Shown: one piece after another, positions 1,752 to 31,192 of the stretch
Position numbering within the stretch: the first letter of the stretch is position 1
Layout of the letters: each line of letters opens with the position of its first letter
NCBI GenBank assembly: GCA_902606115.1
Contig: CACLFM010000002.1
Span: forward strand, 1-64,000
Direction of reading: 5' to 3'
Source of the DNA: an uncultured Pelagibacteraceae bacterium
GTDB taxonomy: Bacteria > Pseudomonadota > Alphaproteobacteria > Pelagibacterales > Pelagibacteraceae
DNA length: 64,000 nucleotides
Notes under the pieces: model-generated
What the model was told of the DNA's origin: nothing
The model's input: the letters and a program-made list of their open reading frames with translations, nothing else
Databases searched by the model: none
Program-made: the position numbers and the translations under genes

Positions 1752-3152
1752 ATGTCTGAAAAATTTGATGCAATCGTTATAGGAGGTGGCCCAGGTGGAT
1801 ATGTTTGTGCAATTAGACTTGCTCAATTAGGAAAAAAAACTGCCTGTGTAGAGTACAGAGGAGCTTTAGGTGGTACATGTTTAAATATTGGATGTATCCC
1901 ATCAAAAAATTTATTAAATCTCTCTGAAAATTTTCAAAAAGCAAAAAATTTTTCAAAAATTGGAATTGAGATAAGTGAAATTAAACTAAATCTTGATAAA
2001 ATGATGAAGAATAAGGATAAAGCAGTTACTGTTTTAACCAAAGGCGTAGAATTTTTATTTAAAAAAAATAAGGTTACTTACTTTAAAGGTTTTGGAAGTT
2101 TTATTTCTGATAAAAGAATAAAAATCAAAAATGCTGATGGCAAAGAGACTGAAATTGAGGGAGAAAATTTGATTATAGCAACAGGCTCAGAGCCTTCTAA
2201 AATGCCAAATATTAAATTTGATGAGGAGCAAATAGTATCTTCAACAGGCGCACTATCATTAAAAAAGGTACCTAAAAAAATGATAGTTATTGGTGGTGGC
2301 TATATAGGATTAGAAATGGGCTCAGTTTGGTCAAGATTAGGTGCTGATGTTCATGTAATAGAATATTTAGATCATATAACTCCTGGTATGGACAAAGAAA
2401 TTTCAAATGAATTTATGAAAATTTTAAAAAAACAAGATTTAAAATTTCATATGAACACGAGGGTAGAAAAAATTACTAAAAAAAACGAAAATATTGAGAT
2501 AGAGACCGTAGATAAGAAAGGAGAAAAAAAATCTCATGTTTGTGATGTTGCTTTAATTTCTATAGGGAGAAAGGCATTTACTGAAAACCTTAATCTTGAA
2601 AAAATAAATTTAAAAACAGATCAAAAAGGAAGAGTAAAAGTTGATAAAAATTTTAGAACAGATAAAAAAAATATTTTTGCTATAGGCGATGTAATTCAGG
2701 GGCCAATGTTAGCGCACAAGGCTGAGGAAGAGGGTATAGCTGTTGCAGAAATCATAGCAGGTCAATCTGGACATGTAAATTATGATTTAATTCCTGGAGT
2801 TATCTATACTTCTCCAGAGGTAGCAAGTATAGGAAAAACAGAAGAACAATTAAAAGAACAAAATACAAGTTATAAAATAGGAAAGTTTCCTTTCATGGCA
2901 AACTCTAGAGCTAAAGCAATTGATGAACCTGAGGGTTTTGTTAAAATTTTAGCAGATCATATAACTGATAAAGTTTTAGGAGTTCATATTATAGGTCCAC
3001 ATGCAGGTGAAATGATTGCAGAAATGGCAATTGCAATGGAATTTGGTGCGAGTTCTGAGGATATAGCAAGGACATGCCATGCTCACCCTACATTTTCTGA
3101 AGCAATCAAAGAAGCTGCATTATCTGTCGATAAAAGACAAATTCATTCGTAA
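1752..3152 (+). CDS. lpd: Dihydrolipoamide dehydrogenase (E3)
   Basis: FAD flavoprotein that reoxidises dihydrolipoamide on E2 and makes NADH. It has 466 residues, the usual length. Visible parts are the N-terminal FAD-binding GGGPGGY (11-17), the redox-active disulfide Cys43/Cys48 in GGTCLNIGCIPSK, an NAD-binding glycine motif IGGGYIGLEMG, the second FAD motif AIGDV, and the C-terminal HAHPTFSEA carrying the catalytic His. It starts four bases after the sucB stop and closes the sucA-sucB-lpd operon. It may also serve other 2-oxoacid dehydrogenase complexes or the glycine cleavage system. Confidence 0.95.
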   Translation: MSEKFDAIVIGGGPGGYVCAIRLAQLGKKTACVEYRGALGGTCLNIGCIPSKNLLNLSENFQKAKNFSKIGIEISEIKLNLDKMMKNKDKAVTVLTKGVEFLFKKNKVTYFKGFGSFISDKRIKIKNADGKETEIEGENLIIATGSEPSKMPNIKFDEEQIVSSTGALSLKKVPKKMIVIGGGYIGLEMGSVWSRLGADVHVIEYLDHITPGMDKEISNEFMKILKKQDLKFHMNTRVEKITKKNENIEIETVDKKGEKKSHVCDVALISIGRKAFTENLNLEKINLKTDQKGRVKVDKNFRTDKKNIFAIGDVIQGPMLAHKAEEEGIAVAEIIAGQSGHVNYDLIPGVIYTSPEVASIGKTEEQLKEQNTSYKIGKFPFMANSRAKAIDEPEGFVKILADHITDKVLGVHIIGPHAGEMIAEMAIAMEFGASSEDIARTCHAHPTFSEAIKEAALSVDKRQIHS

Positions 3153-3229: not shown

Positions 3230-4225
3230 ATGAAAAACTCAAATATCAATTTAAATTCTAAAATATCTAATGACTCCGATATCAGCAAACCATGGGATAA
3301 GGACAATCAGGCCTGGTGGGACTGGTATATTAGTCTTGCAGATAATGATGTTAAAGAAGATGAAATCATTAATGTTGATCCATTACCAGATATTGCAATA
3401 CCCACAGATGAGGAGGTTATCTCAGAATTAGCTGAGCCCTACATTTTAACTAATGATCAAATTAATTTTTTTAAAAAAAATGGATTTATAAAACTTAAGA
3501 AGGTTTTCTCACCTGGGGCTGTGCTAAAACTTAGAGCTGAGTTAATTAATCTATTAAAAGAAAAATTTAAGGTTGATCCAGATGAAGGAGCACATGATCG
3601 CTTCCTTAGTCTTGAAATAATTTGGCCTGATAACGCACTCCTTCGTGCTTATGTTTTATCACCTCGTCTAGGACAAATCTCAGCTAATCTTCTTGAAGTA
3701 CCAGCTGTTAGACTTTACCATGACAACATACTAGCTAAACAAGCTGGTTGTGGCCGTACCCCATGGCACTTTGACGATCATCATTTTCCTCTAGACACTA
3801 ATGATGTAGTTACCGCTTGGGCGCCGGCACAGCCAACGCCTCTTGAGATGGGACCACTCTCTTTTGCTTACCCACTTGATGTTCACAAGCTAATCAATGC
3901 TGTTAAGTTTGAAAAGACCGGCACTGGATATGACCGTGGGATCTCAGATGTTTTTTCAAAAAATAATGTAAGTGTAAATGAAACTGAATTTGAGCTGGGT
4001 GAAGTTAGCTTTCATCATAATTTAAATTTTCATACAGCTTCACGTAACCGTACTAATCGTAGTCGAGTGGTTCTAGCCAATACTTATTACCGAGATGGAG
4101 CGAGAGTAGTCAATGCTCCTACGATGGTTTCTGGTGACTGGCAGAAATTTATGCCCAATGTTAAACCAGGAAATGTAGCTGCCAGTCCGCTAAATCCAAT
4201 TTGTTGGCCAGTCAAAGACAAATAA
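3230..4225 (+). CDS. Phytanoyl-CoA dioxygenase (PhyH) family Fe(II)/2-oxoglutarate oxygenase
   Basis: Probable non-haem iron, 2-oxoglutarate-dependent hydroxylase of the PhyH superfamily, 331 residues. The iron triad is visible: His180-x-Asp182 in the motif TPWHFDDHHF and His268 in FHTASRN, with Arg277 or Arg279 placed to hold the 2-oxoglutarate carboxylate. The first ~70 residues are a polar, Trp-rich extension (QAWWDWY) before the fold begins. The substrate is unknown; PhyH members hydroxylate fatty acyl-CoAs, ectoine, amino acids and natural products. It is the first gene of an overlapping trio with a methyltransferase and an EgtD-like enzyme, so a small methylated metabolite is an inferred substrate. 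Ten of its 13 Arg codons are CGN, whereas neighbours favour AGA, which suggests acquisition by transfer. Confidence 0.8.
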   Translation: MKNSNINLNSKISNDSDISKPWDKDNQAWWDWYISLADNDVKEDEIINVDPLPDIAIPTDEEVISELAEPYILTNDQINFFKKNGFIKLKKVFSPGAVLKLRAELINLLKEKFKVDPDEGAHDRFLSLEIIWPDNALLRAYVLSPRLGQISANLLEVPAVRLYHDNILAKQAGCGRTPWHFDDHHFPLDTNDVVTAWAPAQPTPLEMGPLSFAYPLDVHKLINAVKFEKTGTGYDRGISDVFSKNNVSVNETEFELGEVSFHHNLNFHTASRNRTNRSRVVLANTYYRDGARVVNAPTMVSGDWQKFMPNVKPGNVAASPLNPICWPVKDK

Positions 4226-5145
4226 TGAAAGACATAAATAATCATAAGGGATTGAATTCACTCTGGACTGATAGCCTTGCTCACAATCTTCATCCTGACG
4301 GCAATGCTTTAGTTGATCACTTAAGAACTATACATCAAAAATATACTGGATTTACTGAAGTGTGCGCAAGTTCTTGTCGTGATAAAGTTGGGCGTAATAG
4401 TTATCAATGGTTAGCTGAAATTGTTCCTGATAAAGAGGGTTTGCGAGTATTAGATCTTGCATGTGGGTCAGGTCCGTTATTAAAAATCTTATATGATCGT
4501 AATAAAAAATTGAATTTAAAAGGTATAGACATGTGTCCTGAGGAACTAGCATTAGCTAAGTCTCGTTTTACAAACAGTGGGGTTAATCTAATTGAGTCAA
4601 AAGCACAAAATTTAATGTCAATAAATGACAGCTCTATAGATATAGTCTTATGTCATTGGGCCTTGACATTGATGGACCCAGTAACTCCTGTATTAAATGA
4701 AGTCAAGCGAGTTTTAACTTCCAAAGGTCGTTTTGTTGCTTTAGTTGATGGACCAATTAATGCAGCACATGGCTATAGAGAAATACACGATTTAATTTAT
4801 AGTTATGTTCAGGAAGAAATACCTAGTTATGGAGAAATTGATTTAGGTGATCCAAGGATACGAGGGTCTGAAAGCTTAAGTAACCTCATACAAAGGGTTT
4901 TTCCGGAGGCAAATGTAACCATTGAAACAAACGTTGTGTCTATGGTGGGACCAGTGACCCAAGTGGCTGAAATTGCAGCCGGATTTTTTTATGCTGCATA
5001 TATTTTAAATCCGAAGAAAAGAAAATTAATGATCACAAGTCTATCTAACCTACTCGAAATACCAAAAGAAACCACTGATGCTCAAAGACAAGGTCGATTT
5101 TCAATGCCAATTAATCGTCTTTTAGTTGTGCCTGATATAAAATGA
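4225..5145 (+). CDS. Class I SAM-dependent methyltransferase
   Basis: Rossmann-type methyltransferase of 306 residues. SAM motif I is VLDLACGSGPLL (about residues 75-86), followed by the acidic end of strand 2 (KGIDMCPEE) and a motif near DIVLCHWALTLMD. The ATG at 4225 overlaps the stop of the dioxygenase gene (TAATG), so I prefer it to an upstream in-frame TTG at 4201. Substrate unknown; a natural-product or small-metabolite O- or N-methyltransferase would fit the context. Its last bases overlap the start of the EgtD-like gene (ATGA), indicating translational coupling. Ten of 16 Arg codons are CGN, again unlike the surrounding genes. Confidence 0.8.
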   Translation: MKDINNHKGLNSLWTDSLAHNLHPDGNALVDHLRTIHQKYTGFTEVCASSCRDKVGRNSYQWLAEIVPDKEGLRVLDLACGSGPLLKILYDRNKKLNLKGIDMCPEELALAKSRFTNSGVNLIESKAQNLMSINDSSIDIVLCHWALTLMDPVTPVLNEVKRVLTSKGRFVALVDGPINAAHGYREIHDLIYSYVQEEIPSYGEIDLGDPRIRGSESLSNLIQRVFPEANVTIETNVVSMVGPVTQVAEIAAGFFYAAYILNPKKRKLMITSLSNLLEIPKETTDAQRQGRFSMPINRLLVVPDIK

Positions 5146-6065
5146 AATCATTTTCACAAGAAGTAAGTCTCGGATTAAGTAAAAAAAATAAGACACTAAG
5201 TTCTAAATGGTTTTATGATTTTCATGGATCAAAACTTTTTGAAAAAATTACTAAGCTGGAAGAATATTACCCAGCACGAACTGAAATAAAAATTTTAAAT
5301 GATAATAAAATTGAAATTGCTAATAAAATAGGCAAGAATGCTGTTTTAATTGAACCAGGCGCGGGAGATATTAAAAAAATTGAAATTTTTCTTAGCAGCT
5401 TAGATAAGCCAAAAAAATATGTACCGCTAGATATCTCTAAAGATTATATAATCAAAATATCTCAAGGTTTTAAGAAAAAATTTCCAAAAGTAGCTATTAC
5501 CCCAAAAGGATATGACTTCTCAGAAAATAATAAACTGCCATTTAAAATCAATTCATCAGAAAATGTAATTATTTTTTTTCCAGGATCAACGATTGGTAAT
5601 TTTGAAAAAAAGGATGCTGTTAAATTTTTAAAAATGCTTAAATTTAAATTTAAAGCAAAAAAAATTATTATTGGCGCCGACTTAGTTAAAAATATTTCAA
5701 CTCTAATTTCTGCTTACGATGATAAAAAAGGTATAACTGCAAAATTTAATAAAAATATTTTAAAAAGAATAAATACAGAACTAGGTGGAGATATAAACCT
5801 AAACAATTATAAACATGTAGCGATTTATAATAAATCAAAAAAAAGAATAGAGATGAGATTAAGGGCTAAAAAAAATAATTCTTTTAATATCAACAATTCA
5901 AAATATTTAATTAAAAAAAATGAAGAGATTCACACTGAGAATTCTCATAAATATACGATAAGATCCTTCAAAAACTTAACAAATGAAGCTGGGTGGAAAA
6001 TCAAGAAAACCTGGGTTGATGACAAAAAACTTTTTAGTGTTCATTTTCTAGATTTAGCTAAATAA
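5142..6065 (+). CDS. egtD: EgtD-like L-histidine N-alpha-methyltransferase
   Basis: A 307-residue member of the EgtD (histidine-specific methyltransferase) family; EgtD converts histidine to hercynine with three SAM. Family landmarks are SKLFEKITKLEEYYPARTE near the N-terminus, EPGAGDIKK (SAM motif I), FFPGSTIGNF, GADLVKN, the AYDD..G.T..FN..IL.RIN.ELGG block, RIEMRLR, and EEIHTENSHKY. The Met of RIEM and the Glu of IHTEN match positions known in mycobacterial EgtD to contact the histidine. No EgtB, EgtC or OvoA sulfoxide synthase is encoded nearby; the partners are a PhyH oxygenase and another methyltransferase. Five of six Arg codons are AGR, matching the genome rather than the two genes before it. 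The family call is firm; substrate His is likely but not proven. Confidence 0.82.
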   Translation: MKSFSQEVSLGLSKKNKTLSSKWFYDFHGSKLFEKITKLEEYYPARTEIKILNDNKIEIANKIGKNAVLIEPGAGDIKKIEIFLSSLDKPKKYVPLDISKDYIIKISQGFKKKFPKVAITPKGYDFSENNKLPFKINSSENVIIFFPGSTIGNFEKKDAVKFLKMLKFKFKAKKIIIGADLVKNISTLISAYDDKKGITAKFNKNILKRINTELGGDINLNNYKHVAIYNKSKKRIEMRLRAKKNNSFNINNSKYLIKKNEEIHTENSHKYTIRSFKNLTNEAGWKIKKTWVDDKKLFSVHFLDLAK

Positions 6066-6383: not shown

Positions 6384-8345
6384 ATGAATTTTCCTGTTCT
6401 TATTCCGAATATATTTGATTATCCATTTACTTATACTTCAGACATTAATTTAAATGTTGGAGATTATGTTGAGGTACCTTTTGGAAAAAAAAAAATTAAT
6501 GGAGTTGTTTGGAATGAATTTGAAAATAATCAATCAAAAAATTTTATATTAAAAAAAATAATAAAAAAACTAGATGTTAATCCATTAAAATTATCTACCA
6601 TAAATTTCTTGAATTGGTTTTCAAGCTACAACATAGTTCCAAAAGGAATGGCTTTAAAACTTCATTTATTAAGCAATTATGCTATTGAAAATAAATCAAA
6701 TGATAATTTTATTGAATATGAGTCAACAATAAAAAGTTCAATTTACAAATTAAACAATGAGCAACTTAAGTGTTTTTCTGATTTATCGAAAAATAATAAC
6801 AAATTTAATGTTAGTGTTCTTCAAGGAACAACTGGCTCAGGTAAAACATTGGTGTATTTTAATTTAATTAAGGATAAAATTAAAAAAAACAAACAAGCGC
6901 TTATATTATTGCCTGAAATAGGTTTAGTAGGTGAATTTGAAAAAAAATTTATTGATTTTTTTGGTTTCAAACCCGCAGTCTGGCATTCTGGAATAACCCC
7001 AAAAAATAAAAAAAAAATTTGGAATGGCTTAAGCAATGGAAAAATTAAAGCGATTATAGGAGCAAGATCTTCTCTTTTTTTACCTTTTAAAGAGTTGGGA
7101 ATTATAATTGTTGACGAGGAACACGACCAATCTTTTAAACAAGACGAGGGCGTATCATATAATGCAAGAGATATGGCTATATCAAGAGCTTCTTATGAAA
7201 ACATTCCAATAAATCTAATATCTGCAGTTCCATCAATTGAAACTTATAACAACATAATAAAAGGTAAATATTTTTCTAATAGGATTTTAAATAGATACAA
7301 AAATGCAAGATTGCCAGAATATGAGTTAATTGATTTAACTAAAGAAAAAAAAAATACAGGTAATTTACTCTCAGAAAAAATTATAGATAAGGTTGAATAT
7401 CATTTAAAGAAAAATGATCAGGTGCTTTTTTTTGTTAATCGAAGAGGATATTCTCCTTTTGTCATTTGTAAAAAATGTTTAAAGAGCTTTACTTGTCCAA
7501 AGTGTTCTATAAATCTTGTTTATCATAAAAGAATAAACAAAATTTTATGCCATTACTGTGGTTATAAAAATAATTTAGACAAAAGTTGTAAAAAAAATAA
7601 TAAGGAACAATGTGAATTTATTTATAGTGGCTCAGGTGTTGAAAAAATATTAGAAGAGGTAAAAAAAAGATTCCCAGGAAATAAAACTATTATTTTTTCA
7701 AGTGATACAATTAATAAGAAAAATTCACAAGATGAGATAAAAAAAATTATTAATAATGAAACCAAAATTTTGATTGGAACTCAACTTATTTCAAAAGGTT
7801 TTCATTTTCCAAATCTAAATTGTATAGTAATTTTAGATTTAGACTTTGCATTAAGAGGTTTTGATATAAGAAGTGTAGAAAAAACAGTTCAGTTGTATCA
7901 TCAATTATCGGGTAGAGCTGGTAGAGAAGGCAAGCCATCAAAAGTATATTTTCAAACAATTAACAAAAAAAATAATGTTATATCACAAATTACAAATCCC
8001 GACCCAAATGTTTTTTTGAGAAAAGAACTTGAATTAAGAAAAAAATTTAAATTACCGCCCTTTGAAAGATTTGTATCAATTATAATTAGTTGTAAGAGTG
8101 CTGAAATGTCAGAAAAGATTGCATATAATCTTGCAAACTCTCTTAAAATAAAAACACAAGGAAATATTTTAGGTCCTGTTAATGCACCAATTTATAAAAT
8201 AAGAGGTAGATATAGAAATAGAATACTCATTAGATCAAGTAAAAATATTAAAATTCAACAACAAATACTAAATACTATCAAAAATTTTAAACAACCAGCC
8301 GAAATAAAACTTTCAGTTGATGTTGATCCAATAAACTTCAATTAA
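6384..8345 (+). CDS. priA: Primosomal protein N' (replication restart helicase PriA)
   Basis: 3'-to-5' DNA helicase that recognises stalled forks and reloads the replisome. The 653 residues are shorter than the ~730 of E. coli PriA, mainly in the N-terminal DNA-binding part. Visible motifs: Walker A GTTGSGKT, DEEH box (VDEEHDQSF), a zinc-binding Cys cluster (CKKC, CPKC, CHYC and following Cys), and helicase motifs V/VI (GTQLISKGFHFP and QLSGRAGREGK). It stands alone between the cassette and the ATP synthase operon. Long adenine runs, for example 11 A starting at 6485, encode Lys stretches. Confidence 0.93.
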   Translation: MNFPVLIPNIFDYPFTYTSDINLNVGDYVEVPFGKKKINGVVWNEFENNQSKNFILKKIIKKLDVNPLKLSTINFLNWFSSYNIVPKGMALKLHLLSNYAIENKSNDNFIEYESTIKSSIYKLNNEQLKCFSDLSKNNNKFNVSVLQGTTGSGKTLVYFNLIKDKIKKNKQALILLPEIGLVGEFEKKFIDFFGFKPAVWHSGITPKNKKKIWNGLSNGKIKAIIGARSSLFLPFKELGIIIVDEEHDQSFKQDEGVSYNARDMAISRASYENIPINLISAVPSIETYNNIIKGKYFSNRILNRYKNARLPEYELIDLTKEKKNTGNLLSEKIIDKVEYHLKKNDQVLFFVNRRGYSPFVICKKCLKSFTCPKCSINLVYHKRINKILCHYCGYKNNLDKSCKKNNKEQCEFIYSGSGVEKILEEVKKRFPGNKTIIFSSDTINKKNSQDEIKKIINNETKILIGTQLISKGFHFPNLNCIVILDLDFALRGFDIRSVEKTVQLYHQLSGRAGREGKPSKVYFQTINKKNNVISQITNPDPNVFLRKELELRKKFKLPPFERFVSIIISCKSAEMSEKIAYNLANSLKIKTQGNILGPVNAPIYKIRGRYRNRILIRSSKNIKIQQQILNTIKNFKQPAEIKLSVDVDPINFN

Positions 8346-23501: not shown

Positions 23502-24407
23502 ATGCTTAATAATATATTAATTGTTGGATGCGGACTCATAGGATCATCAATTTTAAGAGGCTCAATAAGTAAAAAAATTTCAAAAAATATATATGTTTTT
23601 GAAAAATCAAAAAGAAATATATCTTTTGTTAAAAAAATTAACAAAAAAATCAAATTTCTTAACGATTTAGATCATCAAGTATCCAATATGGATCTAATTG
23701 TGCTTAGTACTCATATGAGCCAATATAAAAACATAATTAAAAAATTACAAAGATACATTTCCTCAAGAAACATAGTAACTGATACAGGCTCTACTAAACG
23801 CAATATTGAAAAGCTTATTGGTAAAAATAAAAGGTTAAAAGAAATATTTGTGCTAAGCCATCCGATTGCTGGATCAGAGATGAGTGGTCCTAAATTTGGA
23901 AATAAAAACTTATTTAAAGATAAATGGTGTATTATTTTAAAAAGTAAAAACAAATCTAGCAAAAAATTGAAAATAATTGAGAAATTTTGGAAAAAGCTTG
24001 GATCAAAAACAATATTTATGAATTCTGTTGACCATGATAAAATTTTTTCTATAACTAGTCACTTACCACATCTAATTGCATACAACTTAGTTAAAACTGC
24101 AATTGATTTTCAGAAGAAAAATAAAAAAAATATTATAAAATATAGTGCAGGTGGTTTAAGAGATTTTTCGAGAACAGCAGCTTCAAATGAAATCATGTGG
24201 CGTGATATTTTCTTTGAAAATAAAGACAATATTATTGATTCAATAAATATCTTTATCAAGAATCTAAATAATTTTAAGAGACTTATTAAAAAAGAAAGTA
24301 ACAAAAGTATCTTAAATATTTTAAAAGACTCAAAAAAAGTTCGAAGACAAATTATCGAACTGAAGCAGGATGTTTCAAAACCTAATTTTGGAAGAGATAT
24401 ATTTTAA
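23502..24407 (+). CDS. tyrA: Prephenate/arogenate dehydrogenase
   Basis: NAD(P)-dependent TyrA-family enzyme, 301 residues, making 4-hydroxyphenylpyruvate or tyrosine. N-terminal dinucleotide motif VGCGLIGSSI, then TDTGSTK, the substrate motif HPIAGSEMSGP, SITSHLPHLIAYNL and AGGLRDFSRTAAS. There is no fused chorismate mutase or ACT domain. It begins one base after the aminotransferase gene, giving a two-gene aromatic amino acid unit, and overlaps the convergent sulfotransferase gene by four bases. Confidence 0.92.
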   Translation: MLNNILIVGCGLIGSSILRGSISKKISKNIYVFEKSKRNISFVKKINKKIKFLNDLDHQVSNMDLIVLSTHMSQYKNIIKKLQRYISSRNIVTDTGSTKRNIEKLIGKNKRLKEIFVLSHPIAGSEMSGPKFGNKNLFKDKWCIILKSKNKSSKKLKIIEKFWKKLGSKTIFMNSVDHDKIFSITSHLPHLIAYNLVKTAIDFQKKNKKNIIKYSAGGLRDFSRTAASNEIMWRDIFFENKDNIIDSINIFIKNLNNFKRLIKKESNKSILNILKDSKKVRRQIIELKQDVSKPNFGRDIF

Positions 24408-25918
24408 GTAAGGTGCATAAGATCAGTAAGGTAATTTTCGTACCCAGCATATGATTTAAGAGAGGTATTGTAAATCGGCCTCCTAGCTTGATTAAAACTT
24501 ATTGTTTTTATTACTCTTTTGTTTTTATGATGATTAAGACAGTTTTCATCCCAGTCTAAAGAGCAAAATTTTAGTAATTTTTTAATTTCATTTTCTGTAT
24601 TTTTAACGAGATTTTCATACCTTAGATCATAAATTTGATTTGGGAAAAGCTTCTTCCAGAAAAGCATCAAATCTCTATATGATGTATAATATTTAGATAA
24701 ATCATTTAGGTCATTTCCAAAATCTATTTTGGTTGGAAAATAATTTTTATAAATTGACCAGCAATTATCAATAGGATTTCGCACAATATTGATGAATTTG
24801 GAATTTGGCAAAAATTTAAGTATAAATCCTACATAAAAAAAATTTAGTGGAGCTTTGTCTGTAAAAACTTTATTTGATCCATCAATATTGGATACAAAAT
24901 TTAAATATTCTTTATGGCATTTTAACAAGTCATTATTATCTAAATTTTTCTTCATCTTAAAATAATCGTTATATATTTTTTGTATATAAGGTAACTCACC
25001 TCCGCCGATTACATTCTTATGGGATGATAAAATTTGTTCAGTCAAAGATGTACCTGATCTTGGCATACCTATAATAAAAATAAGTTTTCTACTTTGTTTA
25101 TTCAACTTACAATCATCTAAAGATTCAAATTTTTCTTTGATTGTATCAAATCGCTTTTTACTTTTTTCAAAATTATACTTACTAATTTTTTTTGATATAT
25201 CGTTTGCTTTTTTATAATTGATGAACGAATCAACATATTTTTTTTGATCGCTATAAGCCTTTCCTAGTGCAAAATGCAAATGTGCCAATGAACTATCCTC
25301 AAGTTTCATATTAGATAATTTATTTTTTAGATCTAAAAAGTGTTTATGATTTGAATCATATTTTTCCATTTGTGAAATTAATCTATCTGCCTCAGTAAAA
25401 TCAGGTTTAATTTTCAACATCTGAAAATATAATTTTTTAGACTTTTCAAATTTGCCTAAGCTATTATATAAACCTGCCAAGTTGTACATCACTAACAATG
25501 CATCTGACTTTATGGATAAAATTTTTTCATAAATACTTACAGCTTCATCGGTTTGATCTAGATCTTTTTTTAAATTAGCTAAATTATTTAATAAACTTAA
25601 ATTATTATTATCGATTTCTAGGCCTTTTTTGTATTTTACTTCAGCTTTTTTGTATTCATAAATATTCGAGTAAAACATTCCCAAATTATTTAAGAAATCA
25701 CTATTTTTAGGACTTTTTTTTAGTGCCCTGTTCATTATGTCAATAGCTTTATAAGTTTCTCCTTTGTTGTTGTAAGCTAAACATAATAAATTATAAAAAA
25801 CGTCTATATTATTATTTCTTAAGATTAAATTACATTTTTCTATAACCTCATCATATTTTTTTTCCAAAAATATTTTTTTCAAATCCTCAAATTTTTTTTT
25901 TAAATGCAATGTGCTCAT
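24404..25918 (-). CDS. TPR-repeat protein with C-terminal sulfotransferase domain
   Basis: 504 residues. The N-terminal half is a run of about five to six tetratricopeptide repeats (for example KNSDFLNNLGMFY, ALLVMYNLAGLYN, SSLAHLHFALGKAY). The C-terminal half is a PAPS-dependent sulfotransferase domain: the 5'-phosphosulfate loop IIGMPRSGTSLTEQIL and the 3'-phosphate motif RNPIDNCWSIYKNYF are both intact. The closest general family is tyrosylprotein-sulfotransferase-like. Substrate unknown; a surface glycan, lipid or protein is possible, and the TPR part may hold a partner. It starts just after the NlpC/P60 gene, last in the trkH-ampG-P60 block. Confidence 0.88.
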   Translation of the reverse strand: MSTLHLKKKFEDLKKIFLEKKYDEVIEKCNLILRNNNIDVFYNLLCLAYNNKGETYKAIDIMNRALKKSPKNSDFLNNLGMFYSNIYEYKKAEVKYKKGLEIDNNNLSLLNNLANLKKDLDQTDEAVSIYEKILSIKSDALLVMYNLAGLYNSLGKFEKSKKLYFQMLKIKPDFTEADRLISQMEKYDSNHKHFLDLKNKLSNMKLEDSSLAHLHFALGKAYSDQKKYVDSFINYKKANDISKKISKYNFEKSKKRFDTIKEKFESLDDCKLNKQSRKLIFIIGMPRSGTSLTEQILSSHKNVIGGGELPYIQKIYNDYFKMKKNLDNNDLLKCHKEYLNFVSNIDGSNKVFTDKAPLNFFYVGFILKFLPNSKFINIVRNPIDNCWSIYKNYFPTKIDFGNDLNDLSKYYTSYRDLMLFWKKLFPNQIYDLRYENLVKNTENEIKKLLKFCSLDWDENCLNHHKNKRVIKTISFNQARRPIYNTSLKSYAGYENYLTDLMHLT

Positions 25919-26632
25919 TTATCTAATTCCTATAACTTTTAACTTAGCTGTTTTTTCAATCAATTTGAATGTCCTTTTTATATTCATACACAGGACTTTT
26001 TTTTTAGGTCCATAAGCATGTATTAATTGAGTCTTTGATAGACAAACTGCAACATGTCCTATCCAAAAGATAATAGAATTTTTTTTAATTTTTTTTGCTT
26101 TCTTAAAATATTCTATTTGGTCTTTAGTGTCTCTTGGACAATATAAGTTGTTGAATTTAAAAAAAATTTGAACTAATGCAGAGCAATCTAATCCTCTAAA
26201 GGTTGTGCCGCCCCATTTATAAGGTACATTTATAAACATTTTAATATCTTTAAAAATTTGTTGCTTATAACTTATTGGCACAACATTTTTTTTTTTTATC
26301 CAATAATTTCCAAACTTATAAAATTTCTTATCTATTTCGGTCACGGAGATCTTTGAGCAAAATGGAAGTTTAGTACTAATTAAAAATTTCTCCTCTGGTC
26401 TTGAGTACAGATTGGCACTTAAGGATGAAACTTTATGTGTAATTTTAATACTGTCTAAAAATTTTTTTTTTTTTATAAAACCAATATACTTATCGTATGA
26501 AGTCTCAATTTTATACCAGTCTTTTTTTTTGTTTAATATTTGGAACTTTTCACCATAAATCAATTGTGATGACAATTTTGATTTTAAAGAATTTTTTTCG
26601 TAAATATTCACTATAGGATAATTATTTATCAT
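25919..26632 (-). CDS. NlpC/P60 family peptidase with SH3-like domains
   Basis: 237-residue cysteine peptidase that likely cleaves peptidoglycan stem peptides (D-Glu-diaminopimelate bond, dipeptidyl-peptidase VI type). Two SH3-like segments (about 1-120) precede the catalytic domain: Cys in RGLDCSALVQ, His in WIGHVAV, and a second polar His in LIHAYG. I choose ATG 26632, which overlaps the stop of the upstream permease gene (ATGA); no signal peptide is visible from there, so it may act in the cytoplasm on recycled peptides. The coupling to an AmpG-like permease supports a recycling role. Confidence 0.85.
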   Translation of the reverse strand: MINNYPIVNIYEKNSLKSKLSSQLIYGEKFQILNKKKDWYKIETSYDKYIGFIKKKKFLDSIKITHKVSSLSANLYSRPEEKFLISTKLPFCSKISVTEIDKKFYKFGNYWIKKKNVVPISYKQQIFKDIKMFINVPYKWGGTTFRGLDCSALVQIFFKFNNLYCPRDTKDQIEYFKKAKKIKKNSIIFWIGHVAVCLSKTQLIHAYGPKKKVLCMNIKRTFKLIEKTAKLKVIGIR

Positions 26633-28092
26633 TTGATTGGTGCTACTTTTGAAATATATATTATTAAAAATAAAACTGGTATTCCAATTAAAGCAGTAGT
26701 AATGAAGTAGGTTTGATAACCCATTACATCCACCCAAGCCCCAGAATAACCTGCTATAAGTTTAGGCAAAAATAACATTAATGAACTGAAAAGTGCATAT
26801 TGAGTAGCAGTAAATCTTACTGAAGTTAATCCAGATAAGTAAATTACAAACGCAGCTCCAGCAAAACCGCTAGAAATATTATCAGCTGTAATTACAGAAA
26901 TTAAATATCCAATATTAGCCTCTGTAGTTGCTAACCAAGCAAAAAGCAGATTACTTAATGATGCTATAAGAGCACCAATAAAAAGGGTAATCATAGTTCC
27001 AAATCTCATAGCAAAATATCCTCCAAATAATCCCCCCATAATCGTAGCGAAAACTCCAAAAAATTTTGAATAAGTAGCAATTTCACTAATACTATAACCT
27101 TTTTCTAAATAAAAAATATTTGCCATTACCCCCATAACAACATCTGCCATTCTATAAAGTGATATCAAAAGCAAAATCAGCAGAGCAAGCCTCCCGTACC
27201 TATCTATAAAATTTTTGATTGGATTGAAGTAGCTCTTTTTAATTAACGAACTATCTTGAAAATTCAATTTTATTAGTAAAAAAATATATAAACTGCTACA
27301 TAAAAAACAAATAGTTAGTTTTAATATTGTAAAGAAAAAACTTAAAAAGTTTTTGTCTGCAAAAGGATTGTTTATGCTCGAATAAACAAGTATAAAAATA
27401 ATAACTGAAATTAATATATTTACAAAAAATTTAAAATGTACTTTTGACCTATTTGAAAATATCCTTTTTTGTTTAGGTTCATGGGATATGAAATTGGCTA
27501 TGATTCCGATGAACATTAATAATGACATAGTCAAATATACTTTTCTCCAGACATTATAATCATAATCTTCAGCTCCCCAATAAGAAGCTAACCATAAACT
27601 TCCAGCTCCACCAACTAACATACCAATTCTGTAACCAGCTATATAAGTAGATGAAAGTGATCCCTGCAACTTTTGGTCTATTGACTCTATTCTGTAAGCA
27701 TCAATTATTATATCTTGAGTGGCACTAAAAAATGCAACAAGTGTAATATAAACAGCTGTAATATAAATATTATTCTGAGGATCATTTATCGATGTAAGAA
27801 TTAATGAAAAAATTATTAAAAGCTGACTTACAAGTAACCAGCTCCTTCTATGTCCCATATTAGAAAAAAACGGAATGCGAATTTTATCTACTAAAGGTGA
27901 CCATAAAAATTTAAATGCATAAGCAAATCCTGCCCAACTGAAAATTGTGACTGTGCTTCTTTCAATTCCAGCTTTAGTTAACCAAACTGATAAAGTAGAA
28001 AATACTAGCAGAATAGGTAAACCTGATGAGAAGCCTAACATAACCATTTTTAAAGGTTTCTCAGAAAAGAAAAATAAGAAGTTTTTATTCAA
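26629..28092 (-). CDS. ampG: AmpG-like MFS permease (muropeptide uptake)
   Basis: Inner-membrane major-facilitator protein of 487 residues, with about 12-14 hydrophobic segments. The start GFSSGLPILLVFSTLSVWL, FLWSPLVDK, GHRRSWL, SATQDIIIDAYRIE and ADNISSGFAGAAFV are AmpG-type patterns; AmpG imports anhydro-muropeptides for cell-wall recycling. A TTG start directly after the trkH stop is supported by GGAG seven bases upstream; ATG 28047 is the alternative. The overlap with an NlpC/P60 peptidase agrees with the assignment. Some AmpG relatives carry acetyl-CoA or other substrates. Confidence 0.85.
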   Translation of the reverse strand: MNKNFLFFFSEKPLKMVMLGFSSGLPILLVFSTLSVWLTKAGIERSTVTIFSWAGFAYAFKFLWSPLVDKIRIPFFSNMGHRRSWLLVSQLLIIFSLILTSINDPQNNIYITAVYITLVAFFSATQDIIIDAYRIESIDQKLQGSLSSTYIAGYRIGMLVGGAGSLWLASYWGAEDYDYNVWRKVYLTMSLLMFIGIIANFISHEPKQKRIFSNRSKVHFKFFVNILISVIIFILVYSSINNPFADKNFLSFFFTILKLTICFLCSSLYIFLLIKLNFQDSSLIKKSYFNPIKNFIDRYGRLALLILLLISLYRMADVVMGVMANIFYLEKGYSISEIATYSKFFGVFATIMGGLFGGYFAMRFGTMITLFIGALIASLSNLLFAWLATTEANIGYLISVITADNISSGFAGAAFVIYLSGLTSVRFTATQYALFSSLMLFLPKLIAGYSGAWVDVMGYQTYFITTALIGIPVLFLIIYISKVAPIK

Positions 28093-29538
28093 TTATTTTC
28101 TCCAAAAAGAAGGTAAAAAAATTATTAGTATAGCGAATATCTCAAGTCTTCCTAAAATCATTCCTGCTGAAAGCAACCATTTAGACTCGTCTGGAAGTCC
28201 TGAATAATTACTATTAGGTCCAATTTCGCTCCCTAAACCTGGACCTACATTGGACAAAGATGAGGCAGCGCCAGAAATTGATGTAATAAAATCTAAACCT
28301 GTCAAAGTTAGCAATGAAGCTAAAACAAAAAATATTAATATATAAAGATATATAAATGATATTATTGAAGCTATTAGTTTATCTTCGACTTTGTTATAAT
28401 TATATTTTAAATTTATTACTGCCCTGGGGTATATAATTTTTAATAATTGATTTCTTATAAAATGATACAATATATGAACTCTAAATATTTTAATTCCGCA
28501 TGTAGTCGATCCAGCACAACCCCCAATAAACATCAGTATTAAGAAAAAAATTAATGGAAAATTACCCCATTGATCAAATTCTTTAGTTACATATCCGGTC
28601 CCTGTTAAAATTGAAACAACGTTAAAAATTACTGATCTTAAGTGAATTTCAAAAATATTTTGATTAACAATCACAAGGTAAATAAATAATATCAATACAG
28701 AAATTAAAGTTAACTTTAAAAATAGTTTTACTTGTTCATCTTTAAAAATTATTTTTTTGTCATCAGAAATAAATTTTATGTATAAAATGAATGGAATACT
28801 CCCAAGTAAAATAAATATGATAGAGGTAATTTCTATATAAGGATTATTAAAGTATCCGATTGATTGATCATAATTAGAGAAACCTCCTGTTGCGATAGTC
28901 GTCATTGAGTGAGTCAGACTATCAAAAAAGTTCATTCCAAAAATTTTATAAAAAAATGTACAAAAAAAAGTTAACGAAACATATACAGTAATTAATCTCA
29001 ATGAAATTTCCTTTGACTTTGGCAATATTTTTTCTGAAGTATCATAGGATGATATTTTTAATAATTGCATTCCACCAATGTTCATAATTGGCATTAAAGT
29101 AATTGCCATCAAAATAACACCTATTCCACCAAGCCATTGCAGCATTGATCTCCACAAAAGTATGCCTTTTGGTGAACTTTCAATATTATTTAAAATTGTT
29201 GCTCCCGTTGTTGTTATACCTGACATACTTTCAAAAAAAGAGTCAGTAATTGATAAATTTAATTCTGAAAAAAAAAAGGGAAGTGACCCAAATATTGCTA
29301 TACTTAACCACGAAAGCGCAGTAAGTAAAAAAGCCTGTTGTGTATTTATTAGTTTCAAATGATCAATGTTGGATAGAAAAAATAATATACCAAACGTGAC
29401 TGTTATTATGCTTGAAATAATGAAAGTTGAGTCAAATTCTTTATAAATTAATTGGAATACCACAGGAACCATCATAGCAACTCCCAAAATGATTAACAAA
29501 ATACCTAAAGTAAAAAATACTGTTTTATAATTGGACAT
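28093..29538 (-). CDS. trkH: TrkH-family potassium uptake protein
   Basis: Membrane subunit of a Trk/Ktr-type K+ uptake system, 481 residues. The four selectivity-filter loops are seen as GITTTGATIL, TIATGGFSN, LTGTGYVTK and SLSNVGPGLG, with the intervening GCAGSTTCGIK segment. About ten to twelve hydrophobic spans. The regulatory TrkA partner is not in the window. It is first in a minus-strand block with ampG and divergent from lysS. Confidence 0.93.
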   Translation of the reverse strand: MSNYKTVFFTLGILLIILGVAMMVPVVFQLIYKEFDSTFIISSIITVTFGILFFLSNIDHLKLINTQQAFLLTALSWLSIAIFGSLPFFFSELNLSITDSFFESMSGITTTGATILNNIESSPKGILLWRSMLQWLGGIGVILMAITLMPIMNIGGMQLLKISSYDTSEKILPKSKEISLRLITVYVSLTFFCTFFYKIFGMNFFDSLTHSMTTIATGGFSNYDQSIGYFNNPYIEITSIIFILLGSIPFILYIKFISDDKKIIFKDEQVKLFLKLTLISVLILFIYLVIVNQNIFEIHLRSVIFNVVSILTGTGYVTKEFDQWGNFPLIFFLILMFIGGCAGSTTCGIKIFRVHILYHFIRNQLLKIIYPRAVINLKYNYNKVEDKLIASIISFIYLYILIFFVLASLLTLTGLDFITSISGAASSLSNVGPGLGSEIGPNSNYSGLPDESKWLLSAGMILGRLEIFAILIIFLPSFWRK

Positions 29539-29623
29539 TTTTATCGAACATTATTTTATGGAAAATAAATTTCAACATTATATGAATAAAATATGTTCTC
29601 AAAATACAGGATTTTTTAAAACA

Positions 29624-31192
29624 ATGATAAATATAAAAAAAGAAGATATAGAAAAGTCTAACTCATGGCCATTTGTTGAAGCAAAAAAGATCCTAAAAGA
29701 GAGAAAAAAAAATATTGAGAAAAAGGGGAAAGTTATACTTCAAACTGGTTATGGTCCCTCTGGTCTACCTCATATTGGGACTTTTGGAGAAGTTGCAAGA
29801 ACAAGCATGGTAGTCAATGCTCTGAATTATTTAACAAATTTACCAAAAGAAATTATAACATTTTCAGATGATTTAGATGGATTAAGGAAGGTTCCTGATA
29901 ATGTTCCTAATAAAGATATATTAGAAAAAAATTTACATAAACCGCTGACAAATATTCCTGATCCGTTTGGGAAATTTGAAAGTTTTGGTGAGCACAATAA
30001 CGAAATGTTAAAAAAATTTTTAGATGAATTTAATTTTGATTACAATTTTATGAGTTCAACAAATTTGTATAAATCTGGGTTTTTTAATTCATCATTGAAA
30101 AAAATTCTAGATAATTATGAAGGCATAATGAATATAATTATTCCCACATTAGGTAAAGAAAGACAGAAAACATATTCACCTTTTTTACCAATATGTAATG
30201 AGACTGGTAAAGTATTAGAAATACCAATTATAGAGATAAACAAAAAAAACTCTTCTTTGATTTTTGACAATAATGGAAAAAAATTAGAGGCTAGTATTTT
30301 AGATGGAAACTGCAAATTACAGTGGAAAGTCGATTGGGCAATGAGATGGTACACTCTTGATGTTGACTTTGAAATGTACGGTAAAGATCTAATTGAAAGT
30401 GCAATACTATCCTCTAAAATAATTAAACTTTTGGGAAAAAATAAACCATCAGGATTCGCTTATGAATTATTTCTTGATGACAAGGGTGAGAAAATATCGA
30501 AGTCTAAAGGCAATGGAGTAACTATTGAGGAATGGTTGAATTATGCTTCACCTGAAAGTTTATCATTATTTATGTATCAAAATCCAAAAAGAGCTAAAAA
30601 ACTTTATAAAGAAATTGTACCAAAAGCTGTAGATGAGTATTTAGATTTAATTGAAAAAAGTAAAAAACAAAATGCTCGGGAACTTTTATTAAATCCTTTG
30701 TGGCATGTACATAACAGCAAAATACCTTTTGAAGATAATATAATGAGTTTTTCAATGCTATTAAATTTAGTTGAAACAAGTAATGCTTCTTCAGAGGATA
30801 TACTTTGGAAGTTTGTAAAAAATTACAAAAAAAATATAAATAAGGATGATTTTCCGATATTTAACAATTTAATAAAATATTCAATTAAATATTTTAAAGA
30901 TATTGTAAAAAAAAATAAAAAATATAAAAAACCTAACAGCATTGAAATGAAAGCTTTGTTAGATTTAATCTTAACTTTAGAAAATTGTTCTAATGATATG
31001 AAGCCTGAGGACATACAAACAGAAATTTATACAGTGGGGAAAAACAACGGCTACAAGGAAAACCTTCGAGAATGGTTTAAACTAATATATGAAGTTGTCT
31101 TTGGAGTGGAAAATGGTCCAAGGTTAGGATTTTTCATAAGTTTTTTTGGAAGAGAAGAAATGATTTCACTTATTAAAGAAAAAATAAATTAA
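29624..31192 (+). CDS. lysS: Lysyl-tRNA synthetase, class I
   Basis: Class I (archaeal-type) LysRS of 522 residues; charges tRNA-Lys. The HIGH-type motif is GPSGLPHIGTFGE, and the KMSKS-type loop is KISKSKGNG. Class I LysRS is characteristic of alphaproteobacteria among bacteria. I take ATG 29624 (INIKKEDIEKSNSW); the open frame continues back to 29531, but that would overlap the divergent trkH start and remove the promoter space. The stop overlaps the pyrD ATG. Confidence 0.93.
   Translation: MINIKKEDIEKSNSWPFVEAKKILKERKKNIEKKGKVILQTGYGPSGLPHIGTFGEVARTSMVVNALNYLTNLPKEIITFSDDLDGLRKVPDNVPNKDILEKNLHKPLTNIPDPFGKFESFGEHNNEMLKKFLDEFNFDYNFMSSTNLYKSGFFNSSLKKILDNYEGIMNIIIPTLGKERQKTYSPFLPICNETGKVLEIPIIEINKKNSSLIFDNNGKKLEASILDGNCKLQWKVDWAMRWYTLDVDFEMYGKDLIESAILSSKIIKLLGKNKPSGFAYELFLDDKGEKISKSKGNGVTIEEWLNYASPESLSLFMYQNPKRAKKLYKEIVPKAVDEYLDLIEKSKKQNARELLLNPLWHVHNSKIPFEDNIMSFSMLLNLVETSNASSEDILWKFVKNYKKNINKDDFPIFNNLIKYSIKYFKDIVKKNKKYKKPNSIEMKALLDLILTLENCSNDMKPEDIQTEIYTVGKNNGYKENLREWFKLIYEVVFGVENGPRLGFFISFFGREEMISLIKEKIN

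Follow-up and report, generated by a model that had tools for sequence, protein, structure and literature searches.

A conserved PhyH-methyltransferase-EgtD cassette in SAR11 bacteria may direct hercynine toward decorated histidine betaines

Hercynine has been known chiefly as a precursor of ergothioneine, and a locus that joins the gene for its synthesis to those for an oxygenase and a second methyltransferase raises the question of what else might be made from it. We examined such a three-gene cassette in a window of 64,000 nucleotides (the whole stretch of DNA that was analysed) from a SAR11 genome (G000) of 1.02 Mb in 33 contigs that is 86% complete. On the forward strand, the cassette comprises an open reading frame for a PhyH-family (PF05721) Fe(II)/2-oxoglutarate oxygenase (positions 3230 to 4225, 331 aa), one for a class I SAM-dependent methyltransferase (MT; 4225 to 5145, 306 aa), and one for EgtD, the L-histidine N-alpha-methyltransferase (5142 to 6065, 307 aa). 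Outside it, on the same strand, lie lpd (dihydrolipoamide dehydrogenase, 1752 to 3152) on the left and priA (primosomal helicase, 6384 to 8345) on the right. An earlier note on this DNA had described the three genes as overlapping or abutting, and this was correct: the PhyH stop and the MT start share a TAATG, with the MT ATG at 4225, and the MT end at 5145 overlaps the EgtD start in an ATGA, with the EgtD ATG at 5142. We propose, with a rough probability of 0.45 and on the basis of sequence and gene context, that the product of the cassette is a decorated histidine betaine: EgtD would supply hercynine, PhyH would hydroxylate it, and MT would methylate it further.

The first of these steps is well supported by the family and the predicted pocket residues of the third cassette protein. 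This protein scored 329.8 bits against PF10017 and 350 bits against the TIGR03438 EgtD equivalog, which has a curated cut-off of 290.9, and its nearest solved relative is mycobacterial EgtD. The residues of EgtD that contact histidine are Y39, F47, Y56, T163, N166, Y206, T213, E282, and S284 (PMC8593015). All ten contact residues checked in the window protein were identical to those of M. smegmatis EgtD, so that the gene previously called EgtD-like can be regarded as a true EgtD by both its score and its pocket. The tenth of these residues is M252.

The oxygenase scored 45.9 bits against PF05721 (cut-off 22), and its H180-x-D182...H268 motif and R279, the 2-oxoglutarate-binding arginine, were invariant in ten diverse relatives. 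It is 68-93% identical to relatives in SAR11, Rhodobacteraceae, Burkholderiales, and Thioalkalivibrio, and its tryptophan-rich N-terminal extension (PWDKDNQAWWDWY) is kept in the close ones. By profile, the nearest solved proteins were SnoK (3.9e-27), SnoN (1.6e-20), MysH (7.7e-16), and EctD (1.3e-8), together with PHYH, all of which have small-molecule substrates; single-sequence matches to solved relatives ran from 4.8e-10 down to 0.65. An identity as EctD, which would point to hydroxyectoine, was rejected because the single-sequence match had an E value of just 0.65 over 36 residues, and no EctD model appeared among the NCBIfam matches listed. Structure prediction for PhyH failed (pLDDT 34).

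For MT, the Methyltransf_11 score was 59.7 bits against a cut-off of 21.2, and the domains recognised are generic SAM methyltransferase ones. Its glycine-rich SAM motif, DxACGSG, and D102 were invariant in relatives, and the earlier description of intact active-site motifs in both PhyH and MT therefore stands. An AlphaFold2 model (pLDDT 88) has the fold of a small-molecule methyltransferase, and its best matches, OxaG, TmtA, GtmA, and RoqN, are ordinary enzymes of this kind with tied scores. Because the fold is generic and the matches are tied, the model does not reveal the acceptor, and N-, O-, and S-methylation would all be possible. An OvoA-type C-terminal methyltransferase, considered as a possible identity of MT, was not among the best 25 NCBIfam matches. 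A second methyltransferase, MTx, was seen in these data solely outside SAR11, and its profile matches to NTMT1 (alpha-N-terminal; 7e-5) and HNMT (histamine N-methyltransferase; 1.6e-3) were weak.

A scan of genome contigs returned 157 PhyH relatives, the best 80 of which were analysed as loci; the counts that follow refer to these best 80 of 157. MT adjoined PhyH or was one gene away in all 80. The order PhyH-MT-EgtD recurred in 47 loci, all from SAR11 and nearly all with the same start/stop overlaps, and the trio is thus conserved as a unit in relatives, a point that the earlier note had raised. In 16 SAR11 loci the trio lies between lpd and priA as in the window (setting A); the lpd flank is kept in all 16, and the priA flank in all except one that ends at a contig edge. 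Another 19 SAR11 loci, some truncated by contig ends, carry the trio directly downstream of EgtB (setting B), mostly in the arrangement GshA-GshB-DMT-MFS-EgtB, with GshA and GshB present where the contig extends far enough, and 12 more trio loci occupy other chromosomal sites. PhyH-MT stands alone in 19 SAR11 loci (setting C), mostly downstream of lysS-trk-MFS-NlpC, and occurs in five further loci in a GshB-DMT-MFS region that has neither EgtB nor EgtD. Three loci (L057, L069, and L085) have the order EgtD-PhyH-MT, and in L085, from a Burkholderiales single cell, EgtB follows MT. In six Rhodobacteraceae or Thioalkalivibrio loci the order is PhyH-MTx-MT, with EgtD adjacent in L084 and L087. The core outside SAR11 is PhyH with two methyltransferases, and EgtD usually lies elsewhere.

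Several neighbouring genes were recorded alongside these arrangements. The window itself contains, at 24404-31192, the lysS-trk-MFS-NlpC/SH3 site at which other SAR11 genomes carry PhyH-MT alone; PhyH-MT is absent there, and a TPR-sulfotransferase gene is found in its place. In four of the GshB-DMT-MFS loci with PhyH-MT (L036, L044, L045, and L050), EgtB is replaced by small genes similar to those for methionine sulfoxide reductase B and superoxide dismutase. TRAP transporter genes (DctPQM) adjoin the cassette in several SAR11 loci (among L026, L028, L032-L034, L049, L058, and L089) and follow PhyH-MTx-MT in Rhodosalinus. A conserved MFS transporter lies within or beside the PhyH-MT-MTx cluster of other Alphaproteobacteria (L169, L171, and L172), accompanied in L171 and L172 by a sodium-solute symporter.

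The dN/dS values of PhyH, MT, and EgtD were 0.08-0.19 in all comparisons, and all three genes are under purifying selection. Together with the recurrence of the layout in independent single-cell genomes, this indicates that the trio is neither a chance association nor an assembly artefact; contamination or misassembly was ruled out because dozens of such genomes have the same arrangement. A viral origin was rejected as well, since PhyH relatives were absent from the viral contigs searched, and plasmid relatives of PhyH were only 26-44% identical, with unrelated neighbourhoods in the three that were viewed. Between the window and close relatives, dS of the cassette agreed with that of its flanks. 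Against distant lineages with the same layout, dS was 0.5-0.8 for PhyH, MT, and EgtD versus 1.1-2.1 for the flanking sucB, lpd, and priA, which shows joint exchange of the three genes among SAR11 lineages at one and the same site. Their deeper histories differ: between SAR11 and the Rhodobacteraceae or Burkholderiales types, identity is 74-85% for PhyH and only 36-39% for EgtD, so that PhyH-MT has partnered with different EgtDs, a point that speaks against the proposed pathway.

The association of PhyH with EgtD extends beyond gene order. In a sample of 347 genomes of the order, PhyH, called at E below 1e-60, was present in 18 and EgtD in 44, and the co-occurrence that the earlier note had left as a question was complete, with 18 of 18 PhyH genomes EgtD-positive (hypergeometric 2e-18 for 18/18 against 44/347, a value that ignores relatedness). 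The same held in a class-wide sample for non-SAR11 Alphaproteobacteria with a 46-56% identical PhyH, five of five of which had EgtD against a background of 114/384 (p 0.002); these five genomes span four families. Among the 38 genomes checked through their PhyH loci, 33 had EgtD, including 17 of the 19 with the separate layout of setting C. In the 11 setting-C genomes whose surroundings were read, EgtD is encoded elsewhere, downstream of genes for a betaine-type ABC transporter (an OpuAC-domain binding protein and a permease), with two genes intervening in two cases, and is followed by an iron-type ABC transporter. Rhodosalinus (G095) stands out as an exception to this association: it has PhyH-MTx-MT, and neither EgtD nor EgtB was found in its genome; the TRAP transporter genes behind this cluster make uptake of a substrate conceivable. 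In one locus (L147, 2704-4350), the neighbours of EgtD are genes for an HD-domain protein and for an oxygenase of the gamma-butyrobetaine-hydroxylase-like kind, a pair that resembles TmpA/TmpB of phosphonate breakdown.

Whether hercynine goes on to ergothioneine in these cells was examined with an EgtB profile built from SAR11 and Burkholderiales EgtBs, which themselves score 525 and 474 bits against an equivalog cut-off of 360. The profile had no match in the window genome at its 86% completeness and none in 12 further trio genomes (including G061-G064). In the lpd-priA type, the other 16 genomes gave a single match, in G113, that spans just 62 residues at E 1e-4. OvoA and SenA, as homologues of EgtB, would probably have matched this profile too, and neither was found in the window genome or in the 28 other trio genomes. 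An EgtB or OvoA gene elsewhere in the genome, which the earlier note had named as something that would refute its reading, was thus not found. Two further routes for sulfurising hercynine use EanB and MES, as set out in the relevant passages of PMC9516567. In the assembled part of the window genome MES appears to be absent, because the sole PF00384 protein is a 678-aa NuoG followed by NuoH and no molybdopterin-PLP cysteine desulfurase fusion of the MES type was found. Its rhodaneses lie in reading frames of 125 aa and, for a two-domain sulfurtransferase, 284 aa; neither has the size presumed for EanB. Without EgtB, OvoA, or SenA, hercynine would not be consumed by that route, and in genomes of the lpd-priA type it is probably not turned into ergothioneine. 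EgtB was present in just 2 of the 19 setting-C genomes and in most of the non-SAR11 PhyH genomes checked. The interpretation offered in the earlier note, of PhyH and a second methyltransferase working on hercynine, is therefore supported in part: EgtD, the conserved SAR11 unit, and the lack of EgtB and OvoA all held, but the note had missed the SAR11 group with EgtB in the operon, the separate PhyH-MT pairs, and MTx.

On the proposed route, EgtD would form hercynine by threefold methylation of L-histidine at its alpha-amino group, PhyH would hydroxylate this betaine, with the beta carbon as the most plausible site, and MT would place a methyl group on the new hydroxyl or on an imidazole nitrogen. 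A role for PhyH and MT in modifying hercynine is suggested by their location beside EgtD, their joint exchange, and their co-occurrence with it. Hydroxylation of the side chain has a chemical precedent, since beta-hydroxyergothioneine is known from the mushroom Lyophyllum connatum, according to the passage of PMC11993508 that cites Kimura et al. 2005. The product would be a betaine lacking sulfur, with possible roles as an osmolyte, an antioxidant, or a secreted compound. Where EgtB is encoded, PhyH and MT could work on hercynine in parallel to ergothioneine synthesis, or on ergothioneine itself. Cells carry these genes as a cassette that has passed between lineages. A wider form of this proposal is slightly more tentative: in SAR11 and some other Proteobacteria of marine and saline habitats, hercynine would be the starting point for a family of sulfur-free betaines that carry a hydroxyl and additional methyl groups. 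Apart from accumulating or being converted to ergothioneine, hercynine would then have a third fate, encoded on a cassette exchanged between lineages.

Other explanations were weighed against this one. PhyH and MT might make an unrelated metabolite, with EgtD travelling along as a fellow stress or osmolyte gene of the flexible pool and hercynine as its end product. The Rhodosalinus cluster in a genome lacking EgtD is consistent with this, as are the PhyH-MTx-MT core with a mostly distant EgtD outside SAR11, a 44% identical Streptomyces PhyH in an unrelated neighbourhood, and the setting-C EgtD, whose place after betaine-type transporter genes fits hercynine as a solute on its own. Such an arrangement sits poorly, however, with the 18/18 and 5/5 co-occurrence, with the overlapping reading frames of MT and EgtD, and with the joint exchange of all three genes, and we consider it unlikely. 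Somewhat more doubtful is ergothioneine as the substrate of PhyH and MT, to be converted for example into a beta-hydroxylated and S- or N-methylated derivative, with genomes that have no EgtB importing ergothioneine or forming the ring thione by an unknown enzyme. Some PhyH genomes do encode EgtB, so ergothioneine could be a substrate in them; EgtB directly upstream of the trio in setting B, its position after MT in the Burkholderiales locus, and its presence in most non-SAR11 PhyH genomes all speak for this, and the best fold matches of MT include the S-methyltransferases TmtA and GtmA, though these are tied with others. Yet the 29 trio genomes and 17 further genomes without EgtB retain PhyH-MT, and nearly all of them retain EgtD too, which would not be needed if ergothioneine were imported; the window genome also offers no MES-type fusion and no rhodanese of the expected length.

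The order of the reactions might instead be reversed, with PhyH and/or MT modifying free histidine and EgtD then trimethylating the modified product. EgtDs of the separate-layout SAR11 genomes (setting C) carry M252G and T163S, and those of the Burkholderiales type carry M252L and T163S; such changes, located within or beside the histidine pocket, might admit a larger substrate, and for some of these enzymes a modified histidine may be the substrate. The canonical pocket is kept, however, in the window EgtD and in every SAR11 trio EgtD that was checked, just as in EgtDs partnered with EgtB, which makes this order improbable. That the cassette belongs to conventional ergothioneine synthesis, with an EgtB missed in an incomplete genome, gains something from the sister SAR11 group that has EgtB beside the trio. 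It is nevertheless very hard to credit, as EgtB is absent from 17 genomes of the lpd-priA type (apart from the short G113 match) and from 12 further trio genomes, far too many for assembly gaps.

Among these readings, we favour the decorated histidine betaine. We know of no gene that has been assigned to beta-hydroxyergothioneine, and the short genes of the cassette encode two candidate new activities, a betaine oxygenase with a partner methyltransferase. SAR11 are the most abundant bacteria of the ocean, and their cassette hints at a small molecule of the sea that has yet to be described. Should this product exist, it might act as an osmolyte, antioxidant, or exchange compound that is unannotated in metabolomics. 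The claim that no pathway with this gene set had been described agrees with our search, which covered open-licence papers and found none. About 80 genomes have a histidine methyltransferase with no discernible sulfurising enzyme, of which MES explains 55, according to the pertinent passages of PMC9516567. Some EgtD-bearing genomes thus stay unexplained there, and the cassette is a concrete candidate for their chemistry; those same passages mention neither SAR11 nor a PhyH-methyltransferase partner.

Compared with known systems, the cassette shares its first enzyme, EgtD, and the intermediate hercynine with the EgtD-EgtB, EanA-EanB, and EgtD-MES pathways to ergothioneine, and in one SAR11 group EgtB stands in the same gene row as the trio. 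It differs from them in that PhyH and a second methyltransferase occupy the row in place of the sulfurising enzymes. With SnoK, SnoN, MysH, and EctD, the cassette oxygenase has the HxD...H site in common, but its sequence is distant, its gene neighbours are different, and it has an N-terminal extension of its own. Beta-hydroxyergothioneine, as characterised in the passage on L. connatum, is a side-chain-hydroxylated histidine betaine like the proposed product, but it is fungal and contains sulfur, whereas the product of the cassette would be sulfur-free.
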